From Micromonospora luteifusca (GTDB lineage Bacteria; Actinomycetota; Actinomycetes; Mycobacteriales; Micromonosporaceae): a DNA stretch of 64,000 nucleotides. The stretch's first letter is position 1; each line of letters begins with the position of its first letter. The stretch covers positions 6,252,001-6,316,000 of the forward strand of contig NZ_JAFBBP010000001.1 of assembly GCF_016907275.1 (NCBI RefSeq), read 5' to 3'. The notes below the pieces were generated by a model that did not search any database, was not told the origin of the DNA, and was given only the letters and a program-made list of their open reading frames with translations. The position numbers were made by a program, and so were the translations under genes. Below are positions 10,520 to 27,211 of the stretch, in pieces.

Positions 10520-10607
10520 GTGATGCCTCCAGCTTGAAAGTCTCGGGGAAGGCGTGCGCCATGCCGACACGGTTCGCATGAGGCAGTTCCGTCCACATTG
10601 CTCTCGT

Positions 10608-10620
10608 CGATCAATGATCG
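10608..10620. promoter_or_regulatory. 13-bp palindrome between divergent importer and catabolic operons
   Basis: CGATCAATGATCG is a perfect odd palindrome in the 245-bp intergenic region between genes starting at 10519 and 10765. It is a candidate regulator site; no regulator gene lies beside it. A TTGACA box at 10713-10718 precedes the forward operon, without a clear -10. Confidence 0.4.
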
Positions 10621-10764
10621 TAGATGAAAGTTGCCATGGCTGTCACCGGAACGATTTGCAGACACCTGTCCATGAACCCTGCGAGGGAGACGTTCCCGCA
10701 GCTGGCGATTGGTTGACAATGGACGGTCAGACCGCAAAGGCGCAGATCCCCACGAAGGAGCACG

Positions 10765-11700
10765 ATGTCTGATCACCCTGTCCCGTCCGCCCGGGCCCGC
10801 GCCCTGGTCCGCGGCGCCTACGACACGCACGTACACGTGGCCCCCGACGTGATGGCGCGGCGCATCGACGATGTCGATCTGGCGTACCGGTGCGTCGACG
10901 TCGGGCTCGCCGGCTTCGTCCTCAAGTCCCATTACGTGGCCACCGCCGAACGGGCGGCGGTCGTCCGCAAGGTGGTCCCCGGCGTCGAGGCGCTCGGCGC
11001 GATCACTCTCAACGGCGCCATGGGTGGCATCAACCCGGTCGCCGTCGAAGTCGCCGCACGGCAGGGCGCGCGGATCGTCTGGATGCCCACGGTGGATTCC
11101 GGAAACCAGCGGCGCAGCACCGCCACCGATCTGCCCGGTGCCACACCCGCGATGTGGGGGGCGTTCCAAGCCGACCTGCACAGCCAGGGCATCGTGCCGG
11201 AGCCCGTCGACGTCGTCGATGACGAGGGACGTGTCCTCGACCGGGTACGCCAGGTGCTGCGGGTGATCGCCCGACACGACATCGCGCTCGCCACCGGCCA
11301 CCTCAGCGGCGCCGAGATCGTCAGCGTGGTCCAAGCCGCCCACGAAGAAGGGGTACGCCGAATCGTGGTCACCCATCCCGAGTTCACCTCCCAGCGGCTG
11401 CCGGCCGAGCAGCAGCGGGAGTTGGCCGAGGCGGGCGCCCTGTTGGAACGCTGCTTCACCACCCCGCACTCGGGCAAGGTCGCCTGGGTGGAGCTCTTCG
11501 CCACCATTCGTGCGGTCGGGGTGGCCCACTCCGTCCTCTCCAGTGACCTCGGGCAACCCTTCAACCCGCCGGTCGAGGACGGTCTGGCGCTCTTCGCCGA
11601 CCGCTTGCTCGACGCCGGCTTCACCGATGAGGAGATCCACGTCATGGCGGTGGTCAACTCGCGTCGCCTGGCGACGCCCACGGCGACGGTGCCAGCATGA
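10765..11700 (+). CDS. DUF6282 family amidohydrolase-like protein
   Basis: 311 residues, start ATG 10765 with AAGGAG about 8 bases before. The sequence fits a metal-dependent TIM-barrel hydrolase: HxH in YDTHVHVAPD (strand 1), a Lys in FVLKSHY, His in LATGHLSG, His in VVTHPEF, and Asp in VLSSDLGQ near the end, i.e. a full candidate metal-ligand set. It is translationally coupled to the PIG-L gene (ATGA overlap), which is coupled to the RraA-like gene. With GalB-like and aldolase-like partners, a lactone or amide hydrolysis upstream of a 4-oxalomesaconate-like intermediate is plausible (by analogy with LigI), but no DUF6282 activity is known to me. Confidence 0.75.
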   Translation: MSDHPVPSARARALVRGAYDTHVHVAPDVMARRIDDVDLAYRCVDVGLAGFVLKSHYVATAERAAVVRKVVPGVEALGAITLNGAMGGINPVAVEVAARQGARIVWMPTVDSGNQRRSTATDLPGATPAMWGAFQADLHSQGIVPEPVDVVDDEGRVLDRVRQVLRVIARHDIALATGHLSGAEIVSVVQAAHEEGVRRIVVTHPEFTSQRLPAEQQRELAEAGALLERCFTTPHSGKVAWVELFATIRAVGVAHSVLSSDLGQPFNPPVEDGLALFADRLLDAGFTDEEIHVMAVVNSRRLATPTATVPA

Positions 11701-12413
11701 GCGCGCGGCGAATGCTCGTGGTGGGTGCCCACTCGGCCGACTTCGTCTGGCGTGCCGCAGGGGCGATCGCCAAGCACACCGCGGCGGGTGGTGAGGCCGT
11801 CGTGCTCGCCCTCTCCTACGGTGAGCGGGGCGAGTCCGGCGAGCTGTGGAAGGACCCGAACCAGACGGTCGAGAACGTCAAGCGACTGCGGCACGCGGAG
11901 GCGGAGCGCGCGGCCGCCGCGGTCGGCGCCCGCTTGGAGACGTTCGATCGGGGCGACTACCCCCTGCGGATCAGAGACGAGGACATCGACCGGCTGGCCG
12001 CACTGATGCGGGAGTACGCCCCGCACGTGGTGCTCACCCACCCGGACCGTGACCCGTTCAACCCGGATCACCCGGTGGCGCACAGCGCGGTGGCGACCGC
12101 CCGGCAGCTCACCGCGGGAGCCGGGGTGTCCAGCGGCTTCCGGACCGCCCCGCCCTCGGAGTTCCTGGTCTTCGAACCGCACCAGCCCGAGCTGTGCGGG
12201 TTCGTTCCCACCGTCTTCGTCGACATCACCGATGTGATGCCGGCCAAGCAGGAGGCGATGGCGTCGATGGGTGCCCAGGGCTACCTACGTGAGTACTACA
12301 CGCAGCGGGCCGATCAGCGTGGCAACCACGCCCGCCGGGTGACCGGTGACGCCACCATTCGGCAGGCCGAGGCGTTCCAGCGATTGATCCCGACGGTGGT
12401 GGGTGCACTGTGA
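11697..12413 (+). CDS. PIG-L superfamily protein, 4-oxalomesaconate hydratase (GalB)-like
   Basis: 238 residues. The N-terminal metal motif is AHSADFVWRAAGAIA rather than the canonical AHPDD of PIG-L deacetylases. This HxADFVWR form is, as I recall, the signature of GalB-type 4-oxalomesaconate hydratases of the gallate/protocatechuate 4,5-cleavage pathway. The second motif, HPDRDPFNPDHPVAH, supplies further metal ligands. Its ATG overlaps the DUF6282 stop, and its stop overlaps the start of an RraA/CHA-aldolase-like gene, exactly the enzyme that would act after GalB. A hydratase on a tricarboxylic intermediate is the favoured role; deacetylase is the alternative. Confidence 0.75.
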   Translation: MSARRMLVVGAHSADFVWRAAGAIAKHTAAGGEAVVLALSYGERGESGELWKDPNQTVENVKRLRHAEAERAAAAVGARLETFDRGDYPLRIRDEDIDRLAALMREYAPHVVLTHPDRDPFNPDHPVAHSAVATARQLTAGAGVSSGFRTAPPSEFLVFEPHQPELCGFVPTVFVDITDVMPAKQEAMASMGAQGYLREYYTQRADQRGNHARRVTGDATIRQAEAFQRLIPTVVGAL

Positions 12414-13066
12414 GCGAGAATCGTGACGCGGCGGTCGTCGGGCCGGGCGTGATCGAGACGTTGACTGCCGGCGGGGTGGCGACCGTCTTCGAGGCCGCTG
12501 GCCGGTGTGGCCTCATCGACGTCGATCTTGTCCAGATCGTGCCGGGCACCCGGGTCGCCGGCGTGGCCCGGACCGTCCGCTGCGGTCAGGACGACAACCG
12601 CGCCGTGCACGAGGCGATGACGGTGGTACGCCCCGGGGAGGTCCTCGTGCTGACCATGCCCGAGCCCACCCCGGTCGCCCTGATCGGCGAGTTGCTGGCC
12701 ACCCAGGCCAAGGTCGCCGGCGCGGCGGGCCTACTCGTGGACGCCGCGGTGCGCGACGTGGACGAGCTCCGAGAACTCGGGCTGCCGATCTGGGCCCGGT
12801 GGCAACGGGTACGAGGCGCGACCAAGCGCGAGCGGGGCTCGCTCGACGTCGCGGTCCGGGTGGGTGGGGCGACCGTCAACCCGGGGGACGTGGTGGTCCT
12901 CGACGCAGACGGTGCCGTGGTCGTGGCGCGGGGGAGTGCGGTCGAGGTGGCCGCCGCGACGCGGAGTCGGATCGAGAAGGAGACCCGGTTGCGGGCCCGG
13001 CTGGAGGCCGGTGAGTTCAGCTACGACCTGCACGGCTTGCGGGCGCAGGACGAGGCCGCCGGCTGA
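12410..13066 (+). CDS. RraA-family protein, 4-carboxy-4-hydroxy-2-oxoadipate aldolase-like
   Basis: 218 residues with GTG start overlapping the preceding stop (GTGA). The RraA/HMG-aldolase signature is present: GLLVDAAVRDVDELRELGLP, with the Arg-Asp pair that binds substrate carboxylate and Mg. The length and context (after a GalB-like hydratase) favour a class II aldolase cleaving 4-carboxy-4-hydroxy-2-oxoadipate or a related oxo acid to pyruvate and oxaloacetate, rather than the RNase E inhibitor RraA. It is the last gene of a three-gene coupled operon. Confidence 0.75.
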   Translation: MSENRDAAVVGPGVIETLTAGGVATVFEAAGRCGLIDVDLVQIVPGTRVAGVARTVRCGQDDNRAVHEAMTVVRPGEVLVLTMPEPTPVALIGELLATQAKVAGAAGLLVDAAVRDVDELRELGLPIWARWQRVRGATKRERGSLDVAVRVGGATVNPGDVVVLDADGAVVVARGSAVEVAAATRSRIEKETRLRARLEAGEFSYDLHGLRAQDEAAG

Positions 13067-13070: not shown

Positions 13071-13290
13071 GAGCCGCCGACCGTCGAGGCCGCCGACCAG
13101 CAGCATGTGGTGGATCCACCACAGGTCGCCGGTCGGGTCGCGGAAGCGGCTGACGTAGAGACGCGGGAAGGCGGGCGTGGTCGTCGGCAGCCCACTCAGC
13201 CGGCTGATCGGTTAACGATTTCTCACCCAGGTCGGGCGGGCGCACCGCCAGTACGCCGAGGAAGGTGCGGTCGGGCGTCGGCGACCGGTG
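13071..13290 (-). pseudogene. Possible decayed protein-coding remnant
   Basis: On the reverse strand, two adjacent frames read like protein: GVLAVRPPDLGEKSLTDQ in one, then RLYVSRFRDPTGDLWWIHH in another, as if separated by a frameshift near 13160. No start or complete domain is visible and I do not recognise the family. It could also be chance reading in GC-rich intergenic DNA. Confidence 0.25.
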
Positions 13291-13318: not shown

Positions 13319-13332
13319 GGAAATCGATTGCT
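13319..13332. promoter_or_regulatory. LacI-type operator, site 1 (kinase-isomerase operon)
   Basis: GGAAATCGATTGCT ends 15 bases before ATG 13348. It fits nGnAAnCGnTTnCn at all fixed positions and is nearly identical to the sites at 18247 and 18379 before the GH172 gene. Binding by the LacI protein encoded at 16724-17722 is inferred. Confidence 0.65.
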
Positions 13333-13347: not shown

Positions 13348-14886
13348 ATGAAAGTCGCGGCTGTCCTCGGCGTGGACATCGGCACATCGAGCAGCAAGGG
13401 CGTGCTCGTCAACGTCGACGGCCGCGTCCTGCGGTCGTCCACCCGGACGCACGAGGTGAGCCGACCACGACCTGGCTGGGTCGAGATGGACGCCGACGTC
13501 TGGTGGCAGGAGTTCGTCTCCCTCACCAGCGACCTGCTGGCACCCGGCGACGCCGAGGTCGTCGCAGTCGGGGTGAGCGGCATGGGACCGTGCGTCCTGC
13601 TCACCGACGCCGCCAACGTCCCACTCCGCCCGGCCATCCTCTACGGCGTCGACACCCGCTCGACCGATCAGATCGACCGGCTCAACGAGCGGTTCGGCGC
13701 GGACGAGATCCTGCGTCGGTGCGGCTCGGCCCTGTCCAGCCAGGCGGCGGGCGCGAAGGTGGCCTGGGTCGTCGAGAACGAGCCAGACCTCTACCGCCGG
13801 GCCCGTCGGCTCTTCATGCCCAGTTCGTGGCTCGCCGCCAAGCTCACCGACGAGTACGTGCTGGACCACCACTCGGCGAGCCAGTGCACGCCGCTGTACG
13901 ACACCGACGGCCACGACTGGTACCGCCCATGGGCCGCCGAGATCGCCCCCGGGTTGGCCCTGCCTCCGCTGCGTTGGCCCGGCGACGTGGCAGGCCGGGT
14001 GACGGCGGAGGCGGCGGCGCTCACCGGGCTGCCGGCGGGCGTCCCCGTGATCACCGGAACCATCGACGCCTGGTCGGAGGCGATCAGCGTCGGCGCTCAG
14101 GGCGTCGGCGACCTCATGCTGATGTACGGCACGACGATGTTCCTGGTCCACACGGTCGCGGCCCGGGTCACCGACCCGTCGCTGTGGGGGACCGTCGGCG
14201 CCCTGCCCGGGACGCGCAATCTCGCAGGTGGCCTGGCGACGTCCGGCGCGATCACGGCGTGGCTGCGCGAGCTGTTCGGCTCGCCGGACTACCCCGATCT
14301 GCTCCGCCTCGCCGAGGCCTCGGGTCCGGGCGCCCGAGGGCTGCTCATGCTGCCCTACTTCGCCGGCGAACGGACGCCGATCCTGGATCCGCAGGCCCGC
14401 GGCATCCTCGCCGGCCTCACCATCTCGCACGACCGCGGTGACCTCTACCGCGCCGCGCTCGAAGCGACTGGCCTCGGCGTACGCCACAACATCGAGACCA
14501 TCGAGGCGAGCGGCGGTGACATCCGGCGCGTCGTCGCGGTCGGCGGGGGCACCCGGGGCGGGCTCTGGACACAGATCGTCTCCGACGTCACCGGGCGCGC
14601 CCAGGTGATCCCCGCGCAGACCATCGGCGCCAGTTACGGCGCGGCGTTCCTGGCCGCGCAGACGGGGTGGACCGTCTCGATCGAGGCGTGGAACCCCGCC
14701 ACGGAGGTCTGCGAGCCACAGGCCGAGTTCGCCGCCGACTACGACGAGCTGTACGGCCTGTATCGCGAGCTGTACACGAGTTCCAAGCGGGTCGCTCACG
14801 CGCTCGCCGCACGTCAGGTCCGTTTCCTGGGCGCTGCCCGGACGGACGCCAGCAAAGAGCAACGCAACGAAGGAGTCGCCCCATGA
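13348..14886 (+). CDS. FGGY-family carbohydrate kinase
   Basis: 512 residues, typical for FGGY kinases (xylulokinase, ribulokinase, fuculokinase). The N-terminal FGGY domain begins VLGVDIGTSSSKGVLV, the ATP-binding DIGT motif; the C-terminal domain has RRVVAVGGGTRGGLWTQIVSDV, the phosphate-2/adenosine signature. An in-frame GTG at 13339 is an alternative start; no strong RBS is seen. Its stop overlaps the start of the isomerase gene (ATGA), so the two act as a unit: isomerase makes a ketose, kinase phosphorylates it. With a D-arabinose/L-fucose-type isomerase the expected substrate is D-ribulose or L-fuculose. A LacI-type operator sits just upstream. Confidence 0.88.
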   Translation: MKVAAVLGVDIGTSSSKGVLVNVDGRVLRSSTRTHEVSRPRPGWVEMDADVWWQEFVSLTSDLLAPGDAEVVAVGVSGMGPCVLLTDAANVPLRPAILYGVDTRSTDQIDRLNERFGADEILRRCGSALSSQAAGAKVAWVVENEPDLYRRARRLFMPSSWLAAKLTDEYVLDHHSASQCTPLYDTDGHDWYRPWAAEIAPGLALPPLRWPGDVAGRVTAEAAALTGLPAGVPVITGTIDAWSEAISVGAQGVGDLMLMYGTTMFLVHTVAARVTDPSLWGTVGALPGTRNLAGGLATSGAITAWLRELFGSPDYPDLLRLAEASGPGARGLLMLPYFAGERTPILDPQARGILAGLTISHDRGDLYRAALEATGLGVRHNIETIEASGGDIRRVVAVGGGTRGGLWTQIVSDVTGRAQVIPAQTIGASYGAAFLAAQTGWTVSIEAWNPATEVCEPQAEFAADYDELYGLYRELYTSSKRVAHALAARQVRFLGAARTDASKEQRNEGVAP

Positions 14887-16517
14887 CCAGTTACACGCTG
14901 CCCGTGCCTGTCGATCCGCCGGCGATGGCACCCGGTACCGTCTACACGGTTGCCAGCGGCGATCTCCGCCTCAGCGCGAACGTCACCTGCTGGCCCACCC
15001 AGCAGCAACTGGAGGCCGACCTCAGCGCGGCGGTCAACGCGCTCGGCTGGAAGGTCGAGCGCGGGCACGGCGTCGACCCGGTCAAGGGGCACGGCTTCAT
15101 CGACAGTCAGCGCGCGGGCATCGAGGTCTTCAAGCAGATCCCCGTCGACGCGCCGCTGATCGTGGTCGAGGCCGTCTGGCAGTACAGCCACCACGTCCTG
15201 GCCGGGCTGCGCAGCCACCGGGGGCCGATCCTCATCGTGGCGAACTGGAGCGGTGAGTTCCCCGGTCTGGTCGGCCTGCTCAACCTCACCGCGAGCCTTA
15301 CCAAGGCCGGCATTCCGCACTCCGCGCTGTGGAGCCGGGACTTCACCGACGAGTGGGCCATCAACGGGCTGCGGACCTGGCTCGAAACCGGCCAGCTGCG
15401 CCACGACACCAGCCACGTACGTGACCTGCCCGCCCTGCCCGACGACCCGGAGGTCGCGCTGGGCCGGTCGCTGGCCAGCCAGCTCGTGACGGAGAAGGCC
15501 ATCATCGGCGTCTTCGACGAGGGATGCATGGGGATGTACAACGCGATCTTCGACGACGAGTTGATCAATCCGCTTGGCATCTACAAGGAGCGGCTGTCGC
15601 AGAGCGCCCTGGTCGCTGAGATGGCGCGCGTCTCCGACGAGGAGGCCCGAGCGGTCCGCCGGTGGTTGGACGACGCCGGGATGACCTTCCACGTGGGCAC
15701 CGACGAGGCCAGCGAGCTGACCGAGGCGCAGTTGCTCAGCCAGTTCAAGATGTACGTCGCCGCCCTGCGCATCTCCGACGACTACGGCTTGGACGCGGTG
15801 GGCATCCAGTACCAGCAGGGCCTGAAGGACACCGTTCCGGCCAGCGACCTCGCCGAGGGTCTGCTGAACAACGTCCAGCGGCCGCCGGTGCTCAGCCGCG
15901 ACGGGAGCCGCGAGCTGTACCCGGGGGCGCCGCTGCCGCACTTCAACGAGGTCGACGAGGGGGTGGCGGTCGACTCGCTCGTCACCAACCGGATCTGGAC
16001 GGCCATGGGCCTCGACCCGGCGACGACCCTGCACGACATCCGGTGGGGCGAGCAGTACGGCGACGACTTCGTCTGGGTGTTCGAGATCTCCGGCTCGGTG
16101 CCGGCGTCACACAACGGTGGTTACGACAAGTCGTACAGCATGCGCCAGCCCCCGATGTTCTTCCCGCTGGGTGGCGGCACCCTGAGCGGGGTGTCGAAGC
16201 CAGGGGAGATCGTCTGGTCCCGGGTGTTCATCATGGACGGTGTGCTGCACGTGGACCTGGGTCGCGGCACCGTCGTCGAGCTGCCGGCCGAGGAGACCCA
16301 GCGCCGGTTGGACGCCACCAACCCGCAGTGGCCGATCATGCACGCCGTCCTGCACGGGGTCGGCCGGGACCAGTTGATGGCGCGGCACAAGGCCAACCAC
16401 GCCAACGTCGTCTACGCGCCGGACGCGGAGACCGCCGACAAGGCGCTGCGGGCCAAGGCGGCCCTGTTCGCCGAACTCGGCGTCCAGGTGCACCTGTGCG
16501 GTGAGGTCAACCTCTGA
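14883..16517 (+). CDS. L-fucose/D-arabinose isomerase-like protein
   Basis: 544 residues starting at ATG 14883, coupled to the kinase. It matches the L-fucose isomerase fold: an N-terminal Rossmann-like region (residues ~20-180), a second alpha/beta domain with EKAIIGVFDEGCMGMYNAI, and a C-terminal region with IQYQQGLKDTVPASDLAEG. The Glu of FDEGCMGM and a downstream Asp are candidate metal ligands. It is slightly shorter than E. coli FucI (~590), so it belongs to a divergent branch. FucI enzymes also convert D-arabinose to D-ribulose. Together with the FGGY kinase this would feed D-arabinose into the pentose phosphate pathway; L-fucose is the alternative. Confidence 0.8.
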   Translation: MTSYTLPVPVDPPAMAPGTVYTVASGDLRLSANVTCWPTQQQLEADLSAAVNALGWKVERGHGVDPVKGHGFIDSQRAGIEVFKQIPVDAPLIVVEAVWQYSHHVLAGLRSHRGPILIVANWSGEFPGLVGLLNLTASLTKAGIPHSALWSRDFTDEWAINGLRTWLETGQLRHDTSHVRDLPALPDDPEVALGRSLASQLVTEKAIIGVFDEGCMGMYNAIFDDELINPLGIYKERLSQSALVAEMARVSDEEARAVRRWLDDAGMTFHVGTDEASELTEAQLLSQFKMYVAALRISDDYGLDAVGIQYQQGLKDTVPASDLAEGLLNNVQRPPVLSRDGSRELYPGAPLPHFNEVDEGVAVDSLVTNRIWTAMGLDPATTLHDIRWGEQYGDDFVWVFEISGSVPASHNGGYDKSYSMRQPPMFFPLGGGTLSGVSKPGEIVWSRVFIMDGVLHVDLGRGTVVELPAEETQRRLDATNPQWPIMHAVLHGVGRDQLMARHKANHANVVYAPDAETADKALRAKAALFAELGVQVHLCGEVNL

Positions 16518-16723
16518 CGGCTCGGGCCGGTCGAGCCCGCACGGTTGCGGGTGATCCACCGGAGTGACGGCGAGACCGCTGGCGCCGCGGAGCGGAGCCG
16601 GCGGAACACGGACGGGGAGCCTGACGGTGTACCGGGGGCAGGTTCCCCGTCCTCCAATCCAATCGCGGGCGGCTCGGCCACCGGCTCCGACAGCGGTGGC
16701 CGTGGGCTCGCCGGCTGCGGGGT

Positions 16724-17722
16724 TCAGCTTGGGCGGCTGGAGCTCTCGCGTACCTGCAGGCCCGTGCTGAGGGTGACGGTCGACGGCGGTCGCGCCGGGT
16801 TCGCGATCCGTTCGCTGAGCAGGACCGCGGCCGCCCGCCCCAGGTCGTACGTCGGCTGGGAGACGGTGCTCAGCGATGGCCTGACGAGGTGGGCCCAGGG
16901 TATGTCGTCGAATCCGACCACCCCGAACTCGGCCGGCACCTTGACCCCGCGGTCGACGAGGCACTCGACGGCGCCGACGGTCATCAGGTTGTTCGTCGCG
17001 AAGACGCTGTCCGGCGGGTTGTCGCTGTCGAGCAGCGAGGCCATGGCCCGGTAGCCACCCTCCTCGCGGAAGTCGGCGTACCGCACCAGATTGTCGGTTG
17101 CCTCGCGGGCGTGCGACCGCAACGCGCGCTGGTAGCCGCGGAGTCGTTGGGCGGCGGTGGAGATCCGGCGCGGACCGGTGATGCAGGCGACCCGCTGGTA
17201 GCCGTTGCCGAGCAGGTGGGTGGTGGCCAGCTCGGCCCCCTGCACGTTGTCGACGAGTACGGTGTCGATGTTGACGCCGCGCAGTTGGCGGTCGATCGCC
17301 ACGACTGGGATGCGTGCCTCGACGAGCCGGTTGATGACGGTCGGTCGGCCCGACGTGGAGATGATGACGCCCGCCATCCGTTCGGCCAGGGCCGCTGCGA
17401 TGTACCGGGACTCCTTTTCCGGGTCCTCGTCGCTGTTGCACAGGACCACCGAGTAGCCGGCGCCTTGCGCGACGTCTTCCACCCCTCGGACCATCGAGGT
17501 GAAGAAGGGGTTTCCGATGTCGGAGATGATGACCGCCCAGAGGCTGGTCTGACTCAGGCGCAGGTTGCGGGCGACGGCGTTGGGGCGGTAATCGAGTTCC
17601 CGCATCGCCTGCTGCACCCGCGCAGCCATGACTGGATCGACTGTGGTCCGTCCGTTCAGTACCCGCGACACTGTCGCCGGTGAAACCTGAGCCTGCCGCG
17701 CCACGTCATAGATCGTCGCCAT
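16724..17722 (-). CDS. LacI-family repressor of the GH172/importer/kinase locus
   Basis: 332 residues with the canonical LacI HTH at the N-terminus (MATIYDVARQAQVSPATVSR) and the hinge helix region. The effector domain shows WAVIISDIGNPFFTSMVRG and GVVGFDDIPWAHLVRPSLS, typical of pentose/ribose-responsive LacI members. It is transcribed convergently to the isomerase operon and divergently from the GH172 gene. Three near-identical LacI-type operators (13319, 18247, 18379) lie before the two neighbouring operons, making it the obvious regulator. A sugar or sugar-phosphate inducer is expected. Confidence 0.9.
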   Translation of the reverse strand: MATIYDVARQAQVSPATVSRVLNGRTTVDPVMAARVQQAMRELDYRPNAVARNLRLSQTSLWAVIISDIGNPFFTSMVRGVEDVAQGAGYSVVLCNSDEDPEKESRYIAAALAERMAGVIISTSGRPTVINRLVEARIPVVAIDRQLRGVNIDTVLVDNVQGAELATTHLLGNGYQRVACITGPRRISTAAQRLRGYQRALRSHAREATDNLVRYADFREEGGYRAMASLLDSDNPPDSVFATNNLMTVGAVECLVDRGVKVPAEFGVVGFDDIPWAHLVRPSLSTVSQPTYDLGRAAAVLLSERIANPARPPSTVTLSTGLQVRESSSRPS

Positions 17723-18109
17723 TCGCCTCCGTTCGCTCGACGCTTCTGATGGTGTGCTTCGGCGCGGCTGCCCAGCGCGCTCCGGTGCCGGAACCCGGCA
17801 TCCTACGGGTGGGTAGTAACGAAATCGTGACCGGTGTTTCGAGCCGGTGTCCGGCGCGGACGGGGTCGCCGACCGGGCCTGTCACGCTCCACCCCTGACG
17901 GTGAGCCGCAGGGCAGCATGCCGACCGACCGCCACCATTGCGGCGTTCGTCGTCACGAGGATACGCCCGTCCCGGCACGTTCAGTCACGGGCCGGCAGCA
18001 GGCGGTTGCGCTGCGTGCCGTGCGTGGGGTCGCTGCTCATCGCCGGCGCCGCGCCGGCGATCCGGAGCCGGCCATGCCGGATCTCGATCGCGCCCGCGCG
18101 GTTTCGGTG

Positions 18110-18196
18110 TCACGGCGGGTGCCGGTCAGCAGGGGGAGCGGTGGTGGTGGTCTTGCCCGCGCCGAGAGATCCGGTGAGGGCGACGAGTAAGGGCAC
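18110..18196 (-). pseudogene. Truncated P-loop GTPase (CobW-like) N-terminus
   Basis: A GTG-started frame at 18196 encodes VPLLVALTGSLGAGKTTTT and then stops about ten residues later. The LTGxLGAGKTT segment is the Walker A of CobW/HypB-type metal-chaperone GTPases. No Walker B or further domain follows in any frame, so only the first ~20 residues of a gene seem to survive. Confidence 0.4.
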
Positions 18197-18246
18197 GGAG
18201 GGGCCTCCCAGTCGCAGCAGTGGCCGCGACGCGCTTTCTGGAGCGG

Positions 18247-18260
18247 AGAAATCGGTTGCT
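18247..18260. promoter_or_regulatory. LacI-type operator, site 2
   Basis: AGAAATCGGTTGCT fits nGnAAnCGnTTnCn and resembles sites 1 and 3. It lies 132 bp upstream of site 3, about 12.6 helical turns, and overlaps a weak -35 (TTGCTC 18256-18261, then CATAAA 18278-18283). Confidence 0.5.
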
Positions 18261-18333
18261 CGGCTCTGATCGAGGACCATAAAAGCGCGCCGGGTCGCTG
18301 TCAACAGCGTCACCGGTCGGTGGCGATCAAGGA

Positions 18334-18363
18334 TTGACCGCCGCGCGGCGGCGTGCATACCCT
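18334..18363 (+). promoter_or_regulatory. Promoter of the GH172 operon
   Basis: TTGACC (18334-18339), 18-bp spacer, TACCCT (18358-18363), predicted start near 18370. The site-3 operator lies at about +10 to +23, a position where a bound repressor blocks initiation or escape. Confidence 0.45.
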
Positions 18364-18378
18364 GTCGCTGACGCAGCG

Positions 18379-18392
18379 GGAAATCGATTCCT
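18379..18392. promoter_or_regulatory. LacI-type operator, site 3
   Basis: GGAAATCGATTCCT, 45 bases before ATG 18438. It shares the first eleven bases (GGAAATCGATT) with site 1 before the kinase-isomerase operon and fits the LacI consensus nGnAAnCGnTTnCn. Confidence 0.65.
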
Positions 18393-18437
18393 CGACTGGC
18401 TCGCAACCCGCCCCACCCACCGACGTGGAAGGCGCTC

Positions 18438-21400
18438 ATGACATCCACCACCCACGCACCACGTACCTCCGCTCGCCGGCTGGTACGCGCCGCGTTCACC
18501 GCGGCCCTGCTCGCCGGAACCGCCCTGGTCGGCCCGGCCGGGCCAGCGTTGGCCGCGCCCCCCACCCCCCCCGACAACGGCCCCACCGGATGGGACGTCT
18601 ACCGCAGGCTCGACCGGCTCGCCGAGCTTCCCGACGGACCCCGGGCCTACCAGTTCTCCAGCTTCGACCGCGCCGGCGGCAACGACGACGGCTTCTCCGG
18701 CCAGTACTCGTGCCTGCGTACCGGCGCCGATGGCTGCGTCCTCGCCGAAGCCGCCGGTGCCGGTGAGATCGACTCGATCTGGTTCACCCGCGACGAGGGC
18801 GACGTCTCCGCCACGGGAACCATCAAGGTCGTCCTCGACGGCGTGACCGTGCTCGACGCCAAGCTCCAGGACGTCGTGGACGGCAAGCTCGGGGCACCCT
18901 TCGTCTACCCGGTGGTCGCCAACGGGGCGCAGAGCTCCGGGGGTGTCTACATCAAGGCGCCCATGACCTACCGCAGCTCGATGCGGGTGACGACCGAGAA
19001 GAACCCGATCTTCTACCACGTCACCTACCGCAAGTTCACCACCGCCGACGGGGTGCGCACCTTCGACCCGTCGGACCGCGCGTTGGACGTCATCGACCAG
19101 CTCAAGGCCGCCGGGACGAGCGACCCCAAGCGCCCGGAGGCCGGCGCGACGACCGCCAACCGGCAGTTCAGCGTCCCCGCCAAGGGCGCGGTCACCCTCG
19201 CCAGCGGCGTCGGCCCTGGCGCGATCAGTGCCCTGCAACTGCGGATCCCGCAACTCGTCGGGCCGCCGACGCCGGTCACCGATGACGGGCGTGCCTACGG
19301 CTCCGGCGGCGGCAGCGAATTCCAGGTGGCCGTCGACCCGGCAAATGCCGGGGTACGCCTCACCCGCCGACTGGACCCGCACATCGGGCACCAGCGGGCG
19401 CAGGTCCTGGTGGACGGCGTGCCGGTCGCCGAGTGGCCGGCCAACGAGATGGTGCCCTTCGGCACCTGGCTCGACCAGAGCGTCGATCTTCCGGCGAGTG
19501 CCACGGCCGGCAAGTCCACGATCACCATCCGGAACCAGTTCGCGTCCTCCGACCTGGACATCAACGAGTTCACCTACTGGGTCGACAGCCTCGTCGGCGG
19601 CACCGCCAAGCGGACCGACACCCTCGACCTGGGCCCGTCCCACACCGACGCCGAGGCTGCCCACAGCTACCGGATCACCAAGCAGAGCTGGCAGGGCAGC
19701 AACACCATGAGCTACCCGGCCGACGCCGACCGCAAGGCGGCCGTCGCGGCCTCCGACGCGGTGCTGCGGGACAGCCGGCTACGCATCACCTTCGACGGTG
19801 AGACCACCGTGGACGCTCCACTCGGCGAGTTCTTCGGCACCGGCCTCGGGCTGCACCCGGTGCGGTCGCTGATGTTCGGCGTCGACCCCGAGACCGCGAC
19901 GCTGTCGGCCTGGTGGCCGATGCCCTACCGGTCACGGTTCAGTATCGAGTTGCGCAACGGTTCGGGCGTGCCGATCACGACGTCGACGGCCTCGGTGACC
20001 ACCGCACGCTCCACCCGCTGGGCGTCGGCACTGCGTTCAACCGGCACGGCGGGTTACTTCCGGGCCACCGCGACGAGCGCCGACACCACCCCCGGCGCCG
20101 ACCACCCGTTCATCGACGTGGCCGGCCGTGGAAAGTTCGTTGGTGTCACGCACACCATGGAGGGGCACATCCCCGCGGGCAACCAGCGCAACTACCTTGA
20201 GGGCGACGAGCGGGTCTACGTGGACGGCGCGCAGAGCCCGAGCATCCACGGCACCGGGACCGAGGACTTCTACGAGAGCGGCTGGTACTTCAACCACGGC
20301 ACGTTCTCGGCGCCCACCAACGGCAACCCGGCCCACGAGGTCAGCGACTACGGCTGCCAGTACGACTGCACCGGCGCGTACCGGCTGATGCTCGCCGAGT
20401 CGGTGTCATTCGCCACCGACCTGCGCTTCGGCATCGAGCACGGCCCGGGCGACCAGGATCCGGCCCGGTACGGCTCGACCGCCTACTGGTACGGGCAGGA
20501 CACCGTCGGCCAGCGCTGGACCGACACCGTCGACGTCGGCGACGCCGGCAGCGAGTCGGCGCACGCGTACTCCTCCGACGGCAAGCGCGAGGTACTCACC
20601 GCGACCTTCGAGGGCGACGACGGCGCACCCCGACCGGTCACCGACGACACCCGGGCGTCCACGACGCCGATCCGGTTCAAGGTGGCCCTGGACCCGCACA
20701 ACACGGGCGCGGTGCTGCGCCGGGTGGGCGACCAGTCCGCCGGGTACCAGTCGGTGGCCGTGCAGGTCGACGGGCGGGACGCCGGCACCTGGTCGCAGCC
20801 ACTGGCCAACGGTTCGCACCGCTGGTTGGAGGACGAGTTCCGGCTGCCGCCCGCGCTCACCCACGACAAGTCGACGGTGACCGTCACGTTGCGGCCGACC
20901 GCCGGGGCTCCGGCCTGGTCCGCGGCCCGGTACGCGGTGCTGAGCGAGGTCACCCCCTTCGTCGACCAGACCAGGCCCACCCAGGTCACCGGGCTCACCG
21001 CCACCAGCGGCACCACCAACGCGGTGGCGCTGACCTGGCGGCCGGCCACCGACGACGTGTACGCGCCGACCTACGAGGTGTTCGCCTCCCGGAAGGCCGG
21101 GTTCACGCCCGGGCCGGAGAACCGGGTGGGCGTCACGACCCGGCCGAGCTTCGAGCACAGTGGGCTGAGCCTGCGGGAGACCTGGCACTACCGGGTGCGC
21201 GCGGTGGACGCCGCGGGCAACCTCGGCCCGTACTCGGCGCCGGCATCGGCCACCACGGGCGACACGCTGCGGATCGAAGCGGAATCGCTGCTGCCCGCGG
21301 TCTCCACCGACGCACCGGCGGAGGTCCAGGGCGACTGCTGCGGCATCCACTGGTCGCGGAGCGCACAGCTGTGGTTCCGGCCGGACGCGCCGAACCGGAG

Positions 21401-21692
21401 TGTGACGGTGGCGTTCGAGGTGCCCACGACCGGCACCTACCAGCTGCATCTGGTGCAGACGCTGGCGGGGGACTACGGCACCAACACGGTGGCGATCGAC
21501 GGTAGCCAGATCGGCGAGGCGTTCGACGCGTACCACTCGCCGGGGGTGATCGTCAGCGACGCGCTGGACTACGGCCAGCGGGAGCTGTCGGCGGGCCGGC
21601 ACACGCTCACCCTCACGGTGACCGGCAAGGCCGCCGCGGCGAGCGGGTACCTGGCCGGTCTCGACTACGTCGAGGCGCGCCTCACCTCGTGA
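18438..21692 (+). CDS. Secreted GH172 (DUF2961) furanosidase with FnIII and CBM-like domains
   Basis: 1084 residues with a signal peptide ending near AGPALAAPPT (residues ~30-38). The DUF2961/GH172 core spans ~40-700 and carries the hallmark GTGTEDFYESGWYFNHG near residue 605, whose acidic residues form the family's active site. Two similar beta-sandwich segments (FQVAVDPANAGVRL near 295 and FKVALDPHNTGAVL near 747) show an internal duplication. A fibronectin-III domain (~845-940) and a CBM6/35-like domain (~942-1084) follow, as in enzymes that bind insoluble polymers. Characterised GH172 members act on alpha-D-fructofuranosides or D-arabinofuranosides. First gene of the regulated export-import set; ends before a perfect hairpin. 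Confidence 0.88.
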   Translation: MTSTTHAPRTSARRLVRAAFTAALLAGTALVGPAGPALAAPPTPPDNGPTGWDVYRRLDRLAELPDGPRAYQFSSFDRAGGNDDGFSGQYSCLRTGADGCVLAEAAGAGEIDSIWFTRDEGDVSATGTIKVVLDGVTVLDAKLQDVVDGKLGAPFVYPVVANGAQSSGGVYIKAPMTYRSSMRVTTEKNPIFYHVTYRKFTTADGVRTFDPSDRALDVIDQLKAAGTSDPKRPEAGATTANRQFSVPAKGAVTLASGVGPGAISALQLRIPQLVGPPTPVTDDGRAYGSGGGSEFQVAVDPANAGVRLTRRLDPHIGHQRAQVLVDGVPVAEWPANEMVPFGTWLDQSVDLPASATAGKSTITIRNQFASSDLDINEFTYWVDSLVGGTAKRTDTLDLGPSHTDAEAAHSYRITKQSWQGSNTMSYPADADRKAAVAASDAVLRDSRLRITFDGETTVDAPLGEFFGTGLGLHPVRSLMFGVDPETATLSAWWPMPYRSRFSIELRNGSGVPITTSTASVTTARSTRWASALRSTGTAGYFRATATSADTTPGADHPFIDVAGRGKFVGVTHTMEGHIPAGNQRNYLEGDERVYVDGAQSPSIHGTGTEDFYESGWYFNHGTFSAPTNGNPAHEVSDYGCQYDCTGAYRLMLAESVSFATDLRFGIEHGPGDQDPARYGSTAYWYGQDTVGQRWTDTVDVGDAGSESAHAYSSDGKREVLTATFEGDDGAPRPVTDDTRASTTPIRFKVALDPHNTGAVLRRVGDQSAGYQSVAVQVDGRDAGTWSQPLANGSHRWLEDEFRLPPALTHDKSTVTVTLRPTAGAPAWSAARYAVLSEVTPFVDQTRPTQVTGLTATSGTTNAVALTWRPATDDVYAPTYEVFASRKAGFTPGPENRVGVTTRPSFEHSGLSLRETWHYRVRAVDAAGNLGPYSAPASATTGDTLRIEAESLLPAVSTDAPAEVQGDCCGIHWSRSAQLWFRPDAPNRSVTVAFEVPTTGTYQLHLVQTLAGDYGTNTVAIDGSQIGEAFDAYHSPGVIVSDALDYGQRELSAGRHTLTLTVTGKAAAASGYLAGLDYVEARLTS

Positions 21693-21698
21693 CGGCCC

Positions 21699-21734
21699 GG
21701 GGTCGGAGGCCCGCCCACTCGGGCCTCCGACCCC
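21699..21734 (+). terminator. Strong hairpin after the GH172 gene
   Basis: 15-bp perfect stem (21699-21713 with 21720-21734), loop CCCACT, 42 bases before the importer operon. It may terminate most GH172 transcripts or stabilise the upstream mRNA while partial read-through feeds the importer. Confidence 0.75.
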
Positions 21735-21776
21735 GCCCTCACCCGCAGATCCCGCAGACAAGCTACGAGGTGCCGT

Positions 21777-23315
21777 ATGACAGATCGGCCGCTGGTCCGG
21801 ATGACCGGCATCGGCAAGCGGTTCGGCGGCGTGCACGCCTGCCGCGACATCGACCTCACCGTGACCGCCGGTGAGGTGCACGCGCTGCTCGGCGAGAACG
21901 GGGCCGGCAAGTCCACGCTGATCAACGTGCTCTCCGGGGTGATCAGCGAGCACGACGGCACGATCGAGGTGGACGGGGAACCGGTCAGCTTCACCAGCCC
22001 GGCCGATGCCCAACGCGCTGGCATCGCGACCATCCACCAGGAGCTGGACCTGGTGGCCGGGCTGTCCATCGCGGAGAACATGTTCCTCGGGCGCGAGCCG
22101 CGCACCCGCCTGGGCACCGTCGACCTGCGGAAGATGCGCCGGCAGGCCGAGGCGCACCTGCGGACGCTCGGCGCAGACCTGGACCCGCGCCGGCTCGTGG
22201 GGTCGCTGCGCGTCGGCGAGCAACAGCTGGTCGAGATCGGCCGAGCCCTGTCGCTGCGCGCACGGGTCCTGATCATGGACGAACCGACAGCGGCACTGGC
22301 CGACGCCGAGGTCGAACGGCTCTTCGCGACGATCGCCGAGCTACGCCGGGCCGGCGTCGGCATCGTCTACATCTCGCACCGGATGGCGGAGATCGAGCTC
22401 ATCGCCGACCGGGTGACCGTGCTGCGCAACGGCACTGTCGCCGGCACCGTCGACCCGCGGGTCGCCTCCCGCGACGACATCATCCAGCTCATGGTCGGCC
22501 GGTCGGTCGACGCGCTCTTCGGCGAGGGCCGCAACGAGCCCGGGGACGTGCTACTCGACGTACGCGGGCTCGCCGTGACGCCCCGCCGGCCGGTGCCCGG
22601 CCGTACCGAGCCAGCCGGCGTGGATCTCGCCGTGCGCTCCGGCGAGATCGTCGGCCTCGCCGGGTTGATGGGCGCCGGGCGTACCGAACTGCTGGAGACG
22701 TTGTTCGGCGCGGGCGGCTCCGGCCGGCGCGCCGGCCAGGTGACGATCGGCGACCGGCCGTACCGCCCGAGCGGCCCCCGGGCAGCCCTGGCGCGCGGGG
22801 TGGCCTTCGTCCCCGAGGACCGGCGCGGCGCGGGGCTGATGCTGGAGCACTCCGTGGCGGACAACGTGGTGCTCTCCGCGCTGTCGTCGCTGACCACGCT
22901 CGGGCTGGTACGCCGCCCGCTGCTGCGCCGGACCGTGGCCGAACAACTCACCGCCCTGGCGGTGAAGGCGGCATCACCGTCGATCCCCGTGGCGACGCTC
23001 TCCGGTGGCAACCAGCAGAAGATCGTGTTCGCCAAGCAGCTGCTGATGCGACCGCAACTACTCCTGCTCGACGAGCCGACCCGGGGCGTGGACATCGGCG
23101 CCAAGGCCGAGATCTACCACCTGCTGCACCGGCTCGCCGACTCCGGCATGGCGATCCTGCTCGCCTCGTCGGAGCTGCCGGAGCTGCTGAGCCTCTGTGA
23201 CCGGGTGGTCGTCCTGCACCGTGGTCGCACCGTGGCCGTGCTGCCCCGTGCCTCCGCCACCCAACAAGCCATCCTCGCCGCGGCCAACGGGGACGACGTC
23301 AAGGAGTCTGGATGA
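21777..23315 (+). CDS. Sugar ABC importer ATPase, RbsA/MglA type
   Basis: 512 residues with two fused ATPase domains. Domain 1 has Walker A GENGAGKST and Walker B LIMDEPTAAL, and the signature is SLRVGEQQLVEI. Domain 2 has a degenerate Walker A (GLMGAGRTELLE), signature LSGGNQQKIVFAKQL, and Walker B LLLDEPTRGVDIGAKAEIY, the usual RbsA asymmetry. It energises the permease encoded next, whose ATG overlaps the stop (ATGA). Unlike the importer at 3002-6167, this one carries its own ATPase. Confidence 0.93.
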   Translation: MTDRPLVRMTGIGKRFGGVHACRDIDLTVTAGEVHALLGENGAGKSTLINVLSGVISEHDGTIEVDGEPVSFTSPADAQRAGIATIHQELDLVAGLSIAENMFLGREPRTRLGTVDLRKMRRQAEAHLRTLGADLDPRRLVGSLRVGEQQLVEIGRALSLRARVLIMDEPTAALADAEVERLFATIAELRRAGVGIVYISHRMAEIELIADRVTVLRNGTVAGTVDPRVASRDDIIQLMVGRSVDALFGEGRNEPGDVLLDVRGLAVTPRRPVPGRTEPAGVDLAVRSGEIVGLAGLMGAGRTELLETLFGAGGSGRRAGQVTIGDRPYRPSGPRAALARGVAFVPEDRRGAGLMLEHSVADNVVLSALSSLTTLGLVRRPLLRRTVAEQLTALAVKAASPSIPVATLSGGNQQKIVFAKQLLMRPQLLLLDEPTRGVDIGAKAEIYHLLHRLADSGMAILLASSELPELLSLCDRVVVLHRGRTVAVLPRASATQQAILAAANGDDVKESG

Positions 23316-24376
23316 ATTCGCCCAATCCCACCACCGTCGCCGCTTCGCCGCCGGAGACACCGCCCCGCCGCGGGGCGATCCGACTGCCGAAGGACCGGCA
23401 CGCGATCGTCGACAACTTCTTCCGGTTCCAGAGCCTGTTCGGGCTCGTCGCCGTCTTTGTGATCGCGATCGCCGTCTCGCCGTCACGCAACGGCGAGAAC
23501 GTGTTCCTCAGCTCCGGAAACCTCGCCAACATCGTCCGGGCGGTCTCGGAGATCGGCATCATCGCGGTCGGGATGACGTTCGTGATCCTGATCGGCGGCA
23601 TCGACCTCTCCGTCGGGGCGGTGCTCGGGCTCGCCGCGGTCGGATCGGCCACGTTGATGGTCGACAGTGGCCTGGGCATCGTGCCGACGGTCCTGATCGT
23701 GCTCTTCATCGGCACCGCGTTCGGGGCCACCCAGGGCGCGATCGTCGCCCGGCTCGGGATCCAGTCCTTCATCGTCACCCTGGCCGGCCTGCAAGCGGCG
23801 CGGGGCATCGCCCGGATGTGGTCCGGAGGGCTGGGCATTCCAATCGCCTACGGCGACGGACCGCAGGAGGCTCCCGAGGCGTTCTCGCTGCTGAGCGGTT
23901 CCATCAACGGAGTGCTGCCGGTACCGGCCCTGATCTTCCTCGCCATCGGCGTCGGCGCGCTCCTGGTGCTGCGCAGCACCGCCTTCGCACGGCACGTCTA
24001 CGCGATCGGCGGCAACGAGAAGGCCGCCCGACTCTCCGGCGTGCCCGTACGGCGCGTCCGGGTCACCGTCTTCGCGATCTCCGGCCTGCTCGCCGCGCTG
24101 GCCGGGATCATCCACGCCGGTCAGCTCAACCAGGGCAGCCCGAACGACGGTGCCGGCTACGAACTGGACGCGATCGCGGCCGTGGTCATCGGCGGGACGA
24201 GTCTCGCCGGTGGCAGTGGATCCATGGGCGGCACGATCGCCGGCGCCCTGCTGCTCGGGATCCTGAACAACATCCTCGCCCTCAACAACATCGACGCGAA
24301 CGTGCAGCTGGTCGTCAAGGGACTGGTCATCGTCGCTGCCGCCGCGTTGCAGAGGCTCCGTCCCCGCATCGCCTGA
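23312..24376 (+). CDS. Sugar ABC importer permease, RbsC type
   Basis: 354 residues; a ~35-residue cytoplasmic lead precedes 8-10 transmembrane helices. Family segments include GMTFVILIGGIDLSVGAVLG and GTSLAGGSGSMGGTIAGALL, characteristic of the BPD_transp_2 ribose/xylose/galactofuranose permeases. Start ATG 23312 overlaps the ATPase stop. It works as a homodimer with the RbsA-like ATPase and the downstream binding lipoprotein. Confidence 0.93.
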   Translation: MNSPNPTTVAASPPETPPRRGAIRLPKDRHAIVDNFFRFQSLFGLVAVFVIAIAVSPSRNGENVFLSSGNLANIVRAVSEIGIIAVGMTFVILIGGIDLSVGAVLGLAAVGSATLMVDSGLGIVPTVLIVLFIGTAFGATQGAIVARLGIQSFIVTLAGLQAARGIARMWSGGLGIPIAYGDGPQEAPEAFSLLSGSINGVLPVPALIFLAIGVGALLVLRSTAFARHVYAIGGNEKAARLSGVPVRRVRVTVFAISGLLAALAGIIHAGQLNQGSPNDGAGYELDAIAAVVIGGTSLAGGSGSMGGTIAGALLLGILNNILALNNIDANVQLVVKGLVIVAAAALQRLRPRIA

Positions 24377-24399
24377 CCCACCACCACCCTGGAGGAAAC

Positions 24400-25401
24400 A
24401 TGCGTTACACCCGAAGAGCCATCACGATCCTCACACTGACCACGCTCGCGCTCACCGGATGCAGCGTCGAGAAGGACGGCGGCGACGGCGGCACCGACGC
24501 CTCGGCCCAGTGCGGCAGCGGCAAGGAGTTCCTGATCGGCATGTCGCAGGCCAACAACGCCGAGCCGTACCGGCAGGTCATGAATGACGACGTGAGCACC
24601 GCCGCGAAGGCCGTGTCCGGGTTCAAGGTCGTCGTCTCGGACGCGGCCCAGGACAACAGCAAGCAGGTCGCCGACGTGGAGAACTTCCTCTCCCAGGGGA
24701 TCAACCTGCTGATCATCTCTCCGAACGAGGCGAAGCCGCTCACCGCCGTGGTGAAGAAGGCATACGACAAGGGCATCCCGGTCATCGTGCTCGACCGCAA
24801 GGTCGAGGGTGACGCGTACACCGCCTTCATCGGCGGCGACAACGTGGCGATCGGCAAGGCGGCGGGGGAGTACTACGCCAAGACGCTGCTGCCGCAGGGC
24901 GGCAAGGTCGTCGAGATCTCCGGCCTGCCCGGCTCCACCCCGGCCGCCGAGCGCGCCCAGGGCTTCCGCGAGGGCATCGCGAGCAACCCGAAGATCGAGA
25001 TCGTGGCCACCCAGACCGCTGAGTGGCTGCGGGAGAAGGGGCAGAGCGTGATGGACGCGATGCTCAAGGCCCAGCCGGACATCGACGCCGTGTACGCGCA
25101 CAACGACCCGATGGCGGAGGGCGCCTACCTGGCGGCGAAGGCCGCGGGTAAGGAGTCGGCGATCAAGTTCACCGGGATCGACGCGCTGCCCGTCCCCTCC
25201 GGCGGCATCAAGGCGGTCGAGCAGGGTCGCCTGCAGGCGACGTTCCAGTACGCGACCGGCGGACGCGAGGCGATCGACCTGGCCAAGAAGATCCTGGTCG
25301 ACTGCTCGAAGGACGTGCCGAAGTCGACCACCCTCGGCACGACGCAGATCACCAAGGACAACGCTGCCCAGGTCTACACCGAGCTCGGCGGGAAGCAGTA
25401 A
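24400..25401 (+). CDS. Sugar-binding lipoprotein, RbsB type
   Basis: 333 residues from ATG 24400, preceded by GGAGG 5 bases away. The signal [20 protein letters not shown] ends at lipobox LTGC. The mature part is a type-I periplasmic-binding protein (Peripla_BP_4): [31 protein letters not shown], and [18 protein letters not shown]. Related proteins bind monosaccharides such as ribose, xylose, arabinofuranose or galactofuranose, so it fits uptake of the monosaccharide released by the secreted GH172. Third gene of the RbsABC unit; followed by a strong hairpin. Confidence 0.92.
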
Positions 25402-25407
25402 CAGCTT

Positions 25408-25452
25408 CGGTGCTGCGGGTCCGCCGCTGAGGCTGGCGGGCCCGCAGCACCG
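25408..25452 (+). terminator. Terminator after the RbsB-type gene
   Basis: 18-bp stem with one G-U pair (25408-25425 with 25435-25452) and a 9-base loop. It separates the importer from the GH43-like gene, which may be expressed by read-through or its own promoter. Confidence 0.75.
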
Positions 25453-25519
25453 ATCGGCCGGCGAATCAGCCACCGGGAAGCCACCACCGCAAACCCGCAT
25501 CGAGCCCTGGAGGAAAGCG

Positions 25520-27211
25520 ATGTCCCGCCTACCGTCCCGTGTTGGTTGGCTGTCCGCGCTGGTCGCGGTCGCCCTGAGCCTGATCGTGACACCGGTCGCG
25601 GCTCGGGCGGCCGACCCGCCCGCGATCGACAACCAGCCGTACGAGAACCGGTCGACCGTGGTCGGCGCCGGTGACTTCGTGCCCGTCTACGACCCGAGCG
25701 TCGGCGAGAACGAGCGCTGGTACTACAACGACCACACGATGGTGCGTGACCGCCGTACCGGCGAGTGGCACATCTTCGCGATCACCCACGCCGAACCCGC
25801 CAACCCGCTCGACGAGCGGTTCTTCGGTCACGCCACGGCGCCGTCGCCCCGCGGACCCTGGACGAAGCAGCCGTTCGCGTTGGAGGCCGACCCCGCCGCC
25901 GGCGAAAGCCACATCTGGGCGCCGTACGTCCTGTTCCACGGTGGCACCTACTACATGTACTACGCGGGCGGCACCGCGGACCACACGGCCTACCGGATGC
26001 AGTTGGCCACGTCGAAGGATCTCAAGACCTGGACCCGGCACAAGGCGAACCCCCTGTTCACCGACGGCTTCGACGGCCGGGACCCGATGGTCACCCGCGT
26101 CGGCGACCAGTGGGTCATGTACTACACCGCCAACAGCACACCGGCGGGGGGTAACCACATCGTCGCCTACCGCACCAGTAGGGACCTGGTGCACTGGGGC
26201 GCCCGGCAGACGGCCTTCGAACACCCGGCCACCGGCACCTTCGGCGGGCCGACCGAATCGCCGTTCGTGGTGCATCACGACGGATCGTGGTACCTCTTCG
26301 TCTGTTGCGAGAGCGGATACCAGGACACCCGCGTGTACCGCAGCGCCGACCCCTTCCATTTCAGCGTCGACCAGTTGGCGGGGCAGATCAACGCGCATGC
26401 CGCCGAGGTGGTCAAGGACGACTCCGGCACCGGCGACTGGTACGTCACAGGTGCCGGGTGGGGCCAGGGTGGACTTTCGCTGGCACCACTGCACTGGCGC
26501 ACGCCGCTGGTGACGAAGGGCCGCATCGTCACCACTCCCTACTACCGTGCCGTCGTGCAGACCGCACCCCAGGCCCGGCTGGTCTCCTACGACGCCGATC
26601 CCGCTGGACGTGGCGAGTACCGACCCGTCACGGACTCGTCGTCCCGCTCCACGACGCCCTACCTCGCGGTCGGAGCGTTCGGACCAACAGACGTGGCGGG
26701 CGCCGCGAGGGACGTGACCGTCTCCGCCGACGGCACCGACCTGAGCCTCAACGGCATCCCCCTCGGTGACGAGCCGGTGACCACCGACTGGCGGTTCCGG
26801 TTCGATACGGCCACCACGGACCTCAGCTTCGTCTGGCACGTGGCCGGCCCGACCACCGCTCCGGTCTGGGAAGCCGCCTGGAGTCTGGACTCGTCCCTGC
26901 CGCGGCTCGGTGACCCCGACCAGCAGGACAGGGACGGCGACGCCGCGGGCTTCAGCAGTTGGACACTTGCCACCGACGACACGACCACGTTGGTGGCCGC
27001 CTACCGCGCCGGCTCAGCCTGGAATGAGGACAACCGGTGGTTCAACCGCCCCAGCGGATCGGTCGCATGGCAACCGCTGTGGCAGCCCGGCGGACGGTCG
27101 TTGCCCCTCGGTGACCTCCCTGGCGGCACCTGGCGGCTCGGAGTGAGCGGGACCGCCGCGGACACGTCATTTGCCGAGGCACTGGCGGCAGGTCTCAACG
27201 GATCGAGGTAG
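25520..27211 (+). CDS. Secreted GH43-like five-bladed beta-propeller glycosidase
   Basis: 563 residues with a signal peptide ([20 protein letters not shown], cleavage near AARAADPP); ATG 25520 follows GGAGG. The propeller (~45-330) has blade motifs [38 protein letters not shown] and [18 protein letters not shown]; the Glu of TESPF is the likely general acid, as in GH43/GH32-type enzymes. The C-terminal ~200 residues form a beta-sandwich-like domain, as in clan GH-J/GH43 proteins. It probably works with GH172 outside the cell, trimming side chains or chain ends (arabinan or fructan). Family 43 versus 32 cannot be settled by eye. Confidence 0.78.

Follow-up and report, generated by a model that had tools for sequence, protein, structure and literature searches.

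The DNA analysed here, referred to as the window, is a 64,000-nucleotide stretch of Micromonospora luteifusca (G000:C1:6252001-6316000) from a host genome of 7.16 Mb in one contig. At positions 13348-27211 it holds two transcription units that flank a LacI gene. We consider it likely that this locus is an inducible system for scavenging D-arabinofuranosides. Its gene content, protein families, aligned catalytic residues, operators and synteny are established by computation. A sequence-only reading of the same DNA had named a kinase, an isomerase, a LacI repressor, a GH172 enzyme, an RbsABC-type importer and a propeller, and all of them lie within these positions. Among the loci compared, those of the window, L113, L115 and L134-L147 are termed type I and L148-L152 type II.

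13348-16517, plus strand: unit 1, kinase-isomerase
13348..14886, plus strand: FGGY sugar kinase (PF00370/PF02782), predicted D-ribulokinase; 63% identity to the kinase of the M. arabinogalactanolyticum locus
14883..16517, plus strand: FucI-like isomerase, predicted D-arabinose isomerase from profile and residue alignment with FucI
16724..17722, minus strand: LacI-family repressor, divergent from GH172; kept in all 15 type-I loci that have the LacI-GH172 interval complete
18438-27211, plus strand: unit 2, GH172-ATPase-permease-binding protein-propeller
18438..21692, plus strand: secreted GH172 (PF11175) with FnIII and MiXBM-like binding domain, predicted exo-alpha-D-arabinofuranosidase
21777..23315, plus strand: CUT2 importer ATPase of RbsA/XylG type
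23312..24376, plus strand: CUT2 importer permease (PF02653)
24400..25401, plus strand: CUT2 sugar-binding lipoprotein, lipobox by eye; closest solved structure 2x7x
25520..27211, plus strand: secreted GH43/GH32-like five-bladed propeller, putative triad D58, D188 (RDP), E246

The lipobox and the secretion signals were assigned by eye. The coupling of isomerase and kinase proposed in the sequence-only reading is found as a 4-base overlap, with the isomerase ATG lying in the kinase stop (ATGA).

The enzyme of unit 2 belongs to GH172, as it contains a DUF2961 domain with the catalytic Glu pair (PF11175, 217 bits). By alignment, E588 is the acid/base, E609 the nucleophile and Tyr617 the residue at the specificity position, which is Gly in the fructofuranosidase and Asn in the arabinofuranosidase. 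A close comparison is alphaFFase1 of Bifidobacterium dentium, which has the same fold and the same pair of catalytic Glu but carries Gly299 where the window enzyme has Tyr (PMC8605356). Tyr617 is a bulky residue in place of Gly299 and is predicted to block fructofuranose; it may act like Asn253 of ExoMA1. Gly at this position occurs in 0 of 81 GH172 motif matches, a set whose motif filter passed over some Streptomyces GH172s; in one cluster of 22 small GH172s, every member has Asn. As to the accessory domains in the sequence-only reading, the carbohydrate-binding module-like one is recovered as a MiXBM-like binding domain in the predicted fold (residues 942-1084), while the FnIII match stays slightly below its cut-off.

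The isomerase is less easily assigned. The Pfam domain FucI N1 reaches 28.8 bits (cut-off 28), the C domain 26 (cut-off 29.3) and N2 is not reported, so that the three domains of FucI proper do not all reach their cut-offs and the protein appears to be a divergent FucI branch. Profile comparison gives a clear result: a profile of 19 relatives aligned with the FucI profile in hhalign at a probability of 99.5% (E 2.4e-22). Residues E356, D385 and H506, invariant in the 19 sequences, align with E337, D361 and H528 of E. coli FucI, which we take to be the catalytic and metal residues. These alignments place the enzyme in the L-fucose/D-arabinose isomerase (FucI) superfamily. A phmmer search yielded no solved relative. 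The kinase carries FGGY_N and FGGY_C and is an FGGY kinase; its best NCBIfam score is XylB with 296 bits against a cut-off of 380, and no NCBIfam model exceeded its cut-off for kinase, isomerase or GH172.

Both units share the same regulatory signature. In aligned Micromonospora upstream regions, the same box occurs twice before each unit (kinase alignment, ten rows from eight distinct loci; GH172 alignment, seven rows from six; two genomes were entered twice). In the window, the boxes and the one promoter-like site are located as follows.

13211..13222, minus strand: operator O1 (GAAATCGTTAAC), upstream of the kinase, conserved in sister loci
13320..13331, plus strand: operator O2 (GAAATCGATTGC), 16 bp before the kinase start
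18248..18259, plus strand: operator O3 (GAAATCGGTTGC), near the promoter-like minus-strand site
18380..18391, plus strand: operator O4 (GAAATCGATTCC), upstream of GH172
18304-18276, minus strand: promoter-like site TTGACA-17-TATGGT, 1 found with 0.4 expected in shuffles

The scan for sigma-70 promoters and terminators returned this site and one terminator-like site (3.7 expected). The pattern GAAATCGDTWVC occurs 4 times in the window against 0.01 expected, two in each of the two unit promoters, a count that is partly circular as the pattern was derived from aligned promoters. A looser form, GAAATCGNTNNC, has 23 sites genome-wide and 3 for the reversed pattern; the stricter form fits six of these 23, and four of the six lie at the window locus. 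A fairer test is how the pattern extends into other genera. Over the window and the loci fetched (2.19 Mb; L001, L082, L083, L132 and L133 omitted), GAAATCGDTWVC has 113 matches, with overlapping loci counted twice and related loci included, and the reversed pattern has 0. Among the isomerase loci compared, which are the best 80 of 594 confirmed and come from named genomes, 44 contain at least one operator, and 55 of their 75 operator sites lie 400 bp or less upstream of LacI, kinase, long-GH172 or isomerase starts. The operator is present in 31 of the 44 isomerase loci that have a GH172, GH116 or GH183 gene.

GH172 and isomerase also travel together. The sequence-only reading had raised co-occurrence of GH172, FucI-like and FGGY genes in other genomes; the association of GH172 with the isomerase is found at the level of genus and order, and the kinase was followed locus by locus. 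Among 151 Micromonospora genomes (GH172 E <=1e-60, isomerase E <=1e-40), GH172 is present in 26, the isomerase in 38 and both in 25. The isomerase is thus found in 25 of 26 GH172-positive and 13 of 125 GH172-negative genomes (Fisher p 5e-18, uncorrected for relatedness). In 24 of the 25 pairs, the two genes are 12 kb or less apart, and the remaining pair is on different contigs. The exception is G346, whose GH172 lies on a contig of 4,986 bases and whose assembly contains no isomerase. In the order sample of 298 genomes, GH172 occurs in 34, the isomerase in 20 and both in 9 (p 8e-5). This weaker overlap is partly caused by another family using a different isomerase. Family f15, which is Pseudonocardiaceae-like, provides 11 loci (L121-L131); by blastp against their called genes, 8 have the kinase, 6 the importer ATPase and 5 a FucI. 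A scan of three FucI genes of f15 and one of f12 showed all three FucI Pfam domains in each, and GH172/CUT2 loci of f15, for example L121, carry a full FucI plus a 54-57% identical kinase. Two different FucI-type isomerases therefore accompany the same gene set.

Gene order is equally consistent. All 17 type-I Micromonospora loci that were inspected, window included, keep GH172, the three importer genes and the propeller as a group, so the grouping is more than chance. Of the 15 type-I loci whose LacI-GH172 interval is complete, 6 have a GH116 gene inside it, and the window does not; a CobW-type GTPase gene, perhaps a metal chaperone, accompanies this GH116 in L140-L143, L145 and L146. In type-II loci, GH172, propeller, importer and isomerase form a single co-directional string in all five fetched and inspected, two of which include the kinase. 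This last arrangement speaks against a division of labour, in which kinase and isomerase would serve free L-fucose or D-arabinose and the GH172-importer-propeller unit another furanoside. Such a division would suit the 13 GH172-negative Micromonospora genomes that retain the isomerase, and the isomerase relatives that lie with L-fucose-oxidation-like genes and without GH172. Yet both promoters carry the same operators, another family shows the same association with a different FucI, and the genome has no GH29 fucosidase (GH95 was not searched), which also makes L-fucose less likely as the main substrate. We regard separate jobs for the two units as very unlikely.

One of the best 80 isomerase loci, L078, belongs to M. 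arabinogalactanolyticum JCM9171. Its GH172 matches PDB entry 8ic8 over 370 of 370 residues (E 1.6e-266) and its GH116 matches 8ic6/8ic7 over residues 2-855 of 855. L078 is therefore the locus for D-arabinan use described in Shimokawa 2023 (PMC10509167). Identity to the L078 proteins is 66% for the window isomerase and 63% for the kinase, and the operator GAAATCGATTNC is common to both loci, with a single site in L078 between GH172 and LacI. In M. arabinogalactanolyticum, D-arabinose and mycobacterial wall extract raise expression of four GH183 genes and GH116 more than tenfold and of GH172 3.5- to 6-fold, and the gene for the importer binding protein is significantly up with the same two inducers (PMC10509167). 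The putative isomerase and kinase were proposed to feed D-ribulose 5-phosphate (PMC10509167). The two loci thus share orthologous isomerase and kinase, LacI, GH172, the operator and the proposed route from D-arabinose to D-ribulose 5-phosphate. They differ in that M. arabinogalactanolyticum has secreted GH183 endo-enzymes, an SBP_bac_8-type importer proposed for oligosaccharides, and GH172 and GH116 without a signal sequence (PMC10509167), whereas the window has a secreted multidomain GH172, a CUT2 importer and the propeller enzyme, and neither GH183 nor GH116 in the locus. A more distant parallel is PUL42 of Dysgonomonas gadei, where GH172 enzymes and a predicted fucose isomerase are abundant during growth on D-arabinan (PMC10115798, Al-Jourani 2023). 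Unlike the window, PUL42 is a Gram-negative polysaccharide utilisation locus with DUF4185 enzymes, and the available part of that paper does not name a CUT2 importer or LacI (PMC10115798).

We infer substrates, transport direction, effector and position of phosphorylation as follows. The secreted GH172 would remove alpha-D-arabinofuranose from D-arabinan ends outside the cell, on arabinogalactan, lipoarabinomannan or their fragments, and the GH43/GH32-like enzyme would assist it on a second, putative linkage. Free D-arabinose would enter via the CUT2 importer, be converted to D-ribulose by the isomerase and to D-ribulose 5-phosphate by the FGGY kinase, and so reach the pentose phosphate pathway. 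LacI would repress both transcription units via the four GAAATCG-core operators and be released by D-arabinose or a derivative. This pathway is already published and only the layout is different: extracellular exo-cleavage with CUT2 import of the monosaccharide is predicted to replace the oligosaccharide import and cytoplasmic exo-enzymes proposed for M. arabinogalactanolyticum. The niche is likewise less unusual than the sequence-only reading had it, since a 2023 study had already proposed the route to D-ribulose 5-phosphate, and with it the niche is described for other actinobacteria (PMC10509167). A description of the window's layout was not found in the open-access papers searched, which is no proof of absence.

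The same enzymes could also remodel or recycle the organism's own arabinose-containing polymers, which overlaps with scavenging and differs from it in the source alone. Micromonosporaceae and Pseudonocardiaceae have arabinose in their whole-cell or wall sugars, and related loci occur in the Pseudonocardiaceae-like family. A housekeeping function is, however, not expected to be restricted to 26 of 151 Micromonospora genomes, nor to come with a whole set of catabolic genes plus importer and repressor, and we find own-polymer turnover rather unlikely. Scavenging of D-arabinofuranosides would be of wider interest. Mycobacterial walls have D-arabinan as their hallmark polymer, and few enzymes are known to attack it; the locus provides a predicted extracellular GH172 plus a propeller enzyme linked to it by operon and fusion. 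The conserved operator may allow the D-arabinose regulon to be located in many actinobacteria, and simple growth and binding assays could address who eats whose cell wall in soil.

The importer is of CUT2 type, with a double ATPase, a BPD_transp_2 permease and a Peripla_BP_4 binding protein. The propeller matches Pfam families of both GH43 (51 bits) and GH32 (45 bits). D58, D188 and E246 are invariant in 59 sequences and presumably form its catalytic triad. In Nakamurella, Kribbella, Luteimicrobium and Isoptericola, propeller and GH172 are fused in one polypeptide (L118-L120; P0303, P0332, P0337, P0356). The propeller is a candidate second furanosidase. Tentatively, it could be an exo-beta-D-arabinofuranosidase on a fructan-hydrolase scaffold, the beta counterpart of GH172 and a stand-in for GH116 that strips beta-capped D-arabinan outside the cell, an assignment we would hold doubtful for now. 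If true, GH172 would cover alpha-D-Fruf and alpha-D-Araf, and GH32-like propellers beta-D-Fruf and beta-D-Araf.

Several findings weigh against the D-arabinofuranoside reading. A first group concerns the sugar. The window GH172 has Asn where alphaFFase1 has Trp267 (PMC8605356). The predicted fold of the propeller is nearest to GH32 (27.8), followed by GH159, GH43 and further GH32 folds (about 26), and the nearest one is a levanase. By sequence, the closest solved relative of the binding protein is 2x7x (E 2e-72), which we take to be the periplasmic portion of BT1754, a fructose sensor of Bacteroides. D-arabinofuranose is D-fructofuranose minus C1, so this likeness is compatible with either sugar. 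BT1754 is described as fructose-binding, in a text whose available part does not name 2x7x (PMC3404733). A fructan or difructose-anhydride locus would have GH172 act on alpha-D-fructofuranosides, the propeller on beta-D-fructofuranosides and the importer on fructose. It is the less likely alternative and in our judgement improbable, because Tyr occupies the GH172 position that must be small for fructose, and because operator, isomerase and kinase are common to the D-arabinose-induced locus of M. arabinogalactanolyticum. To our knowledge, a FucI-type isomerase with a pentulokinase-like kinase has no role in fructose catabolism. The absence of GH32 was dropped as a further argument against fructan since the genome has one other GH32_N match, of 317 aa (56 bits, GH43 and GH68 weakly) and about 1.2 Mb away. 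This GH32_N/GH43/GH68-like protein is encoded at L154:5075-7126 on the minus strand, beside its own LacI gene.

A second group concerns the link between isomerase, operator and arabinan. GH172, GH116 and GH183 are absent, in the stretch available, from 36 of the 80 isomerase loci and from 24 of the 61 full-length ones, as judged with profiles made from genes of those same loci. Thirteen of these 36 loci nevertheless have the operator. Six isomerase loci (L019, L022, L025, L030, L032, L049) have L-fucose-oxidation-like neighbours; by gene cluster, with representatives scanned, these are aldo-keto reductase and enolase-superfamily genes, with some SDR, FAA-hydrolase or RbsD/FucU-type genes. The isomerase is therefore of L-fucose/D-arabinose type and not a marker of arabinan. 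L025, L030, L032 and L049 also have the operator. Only 2 of the 11 f15 loci contain it, so the operator is not common to every GH172/CUT2 locus. Induction of isomerase and kinase is not among the results given in the available part of the M. arabinogalactanolyticum study (PMC10509167).

A third group concerns completeness. GH183, the endo-D-arabinanase family, is missing from the locus, and PF04685 (GH116) has no match in the whole genome. The only DUF4185 (GH183-like) match of the genome, at G000:C1:6404658-6405626, is 131 kb from the GH172 gene. In the order sample, DUF4185 (E <=0.001) is not tied to the isomerase, with 10 of 20 positive and 135 of 278 negative genomes containing it. The complete route from D-arabinan inferred in the sequence-only reading is not supported. 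D-arabinose as the released sugar is supported by the orthology with M. arabinogalactanolyticum, the shared operator, the GH172 specificity position, the FucI residues and co-occurrence. With no endo-enzyme in it, the locus probably scavenges D-arabinofuranosides rather than degrading arabinan in full. The single DUF4185 gene might supply an endo-enzyme. Membership of this gene in the regulon was rejected, with the nearest operator-like sites more than 80 kb away. The DUF4185 gene (L132:9643-10767, minus strand) adjoins genes for a P450 and an FG-GAP repeat protein.

The genes directly upstream of the kinase (DUF6282, PIG-L and RraA-like, 10765-13066) were rejected as members of the system, as they have no operator. 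Among 23 loci compared, they are confined to the window and the closely related L134, with an RraA-kinase gap of 1.8 kb in the latter. At 8644-13066, NMT1/THI5-like ATP-binding cassette transporter genes on the minus strand lie beside this DUF6282, PIG-L and RraA-like operon on the plus strand, also in L134, and together they possibly form a separate catabolic cluster. Further upstream, at 1857-8531, LacI, a CUT1 binding protein and permease and a GH3 enzyme form a separate cluster for glycoside use. At 50068-53985, the minus strand encodes a protein of 1305 aa that combines AMP-binding, carrier and hexapeptide-repeat acyltransferase domains in an unusual architecture resembling nonribosomal peptide synthetases.

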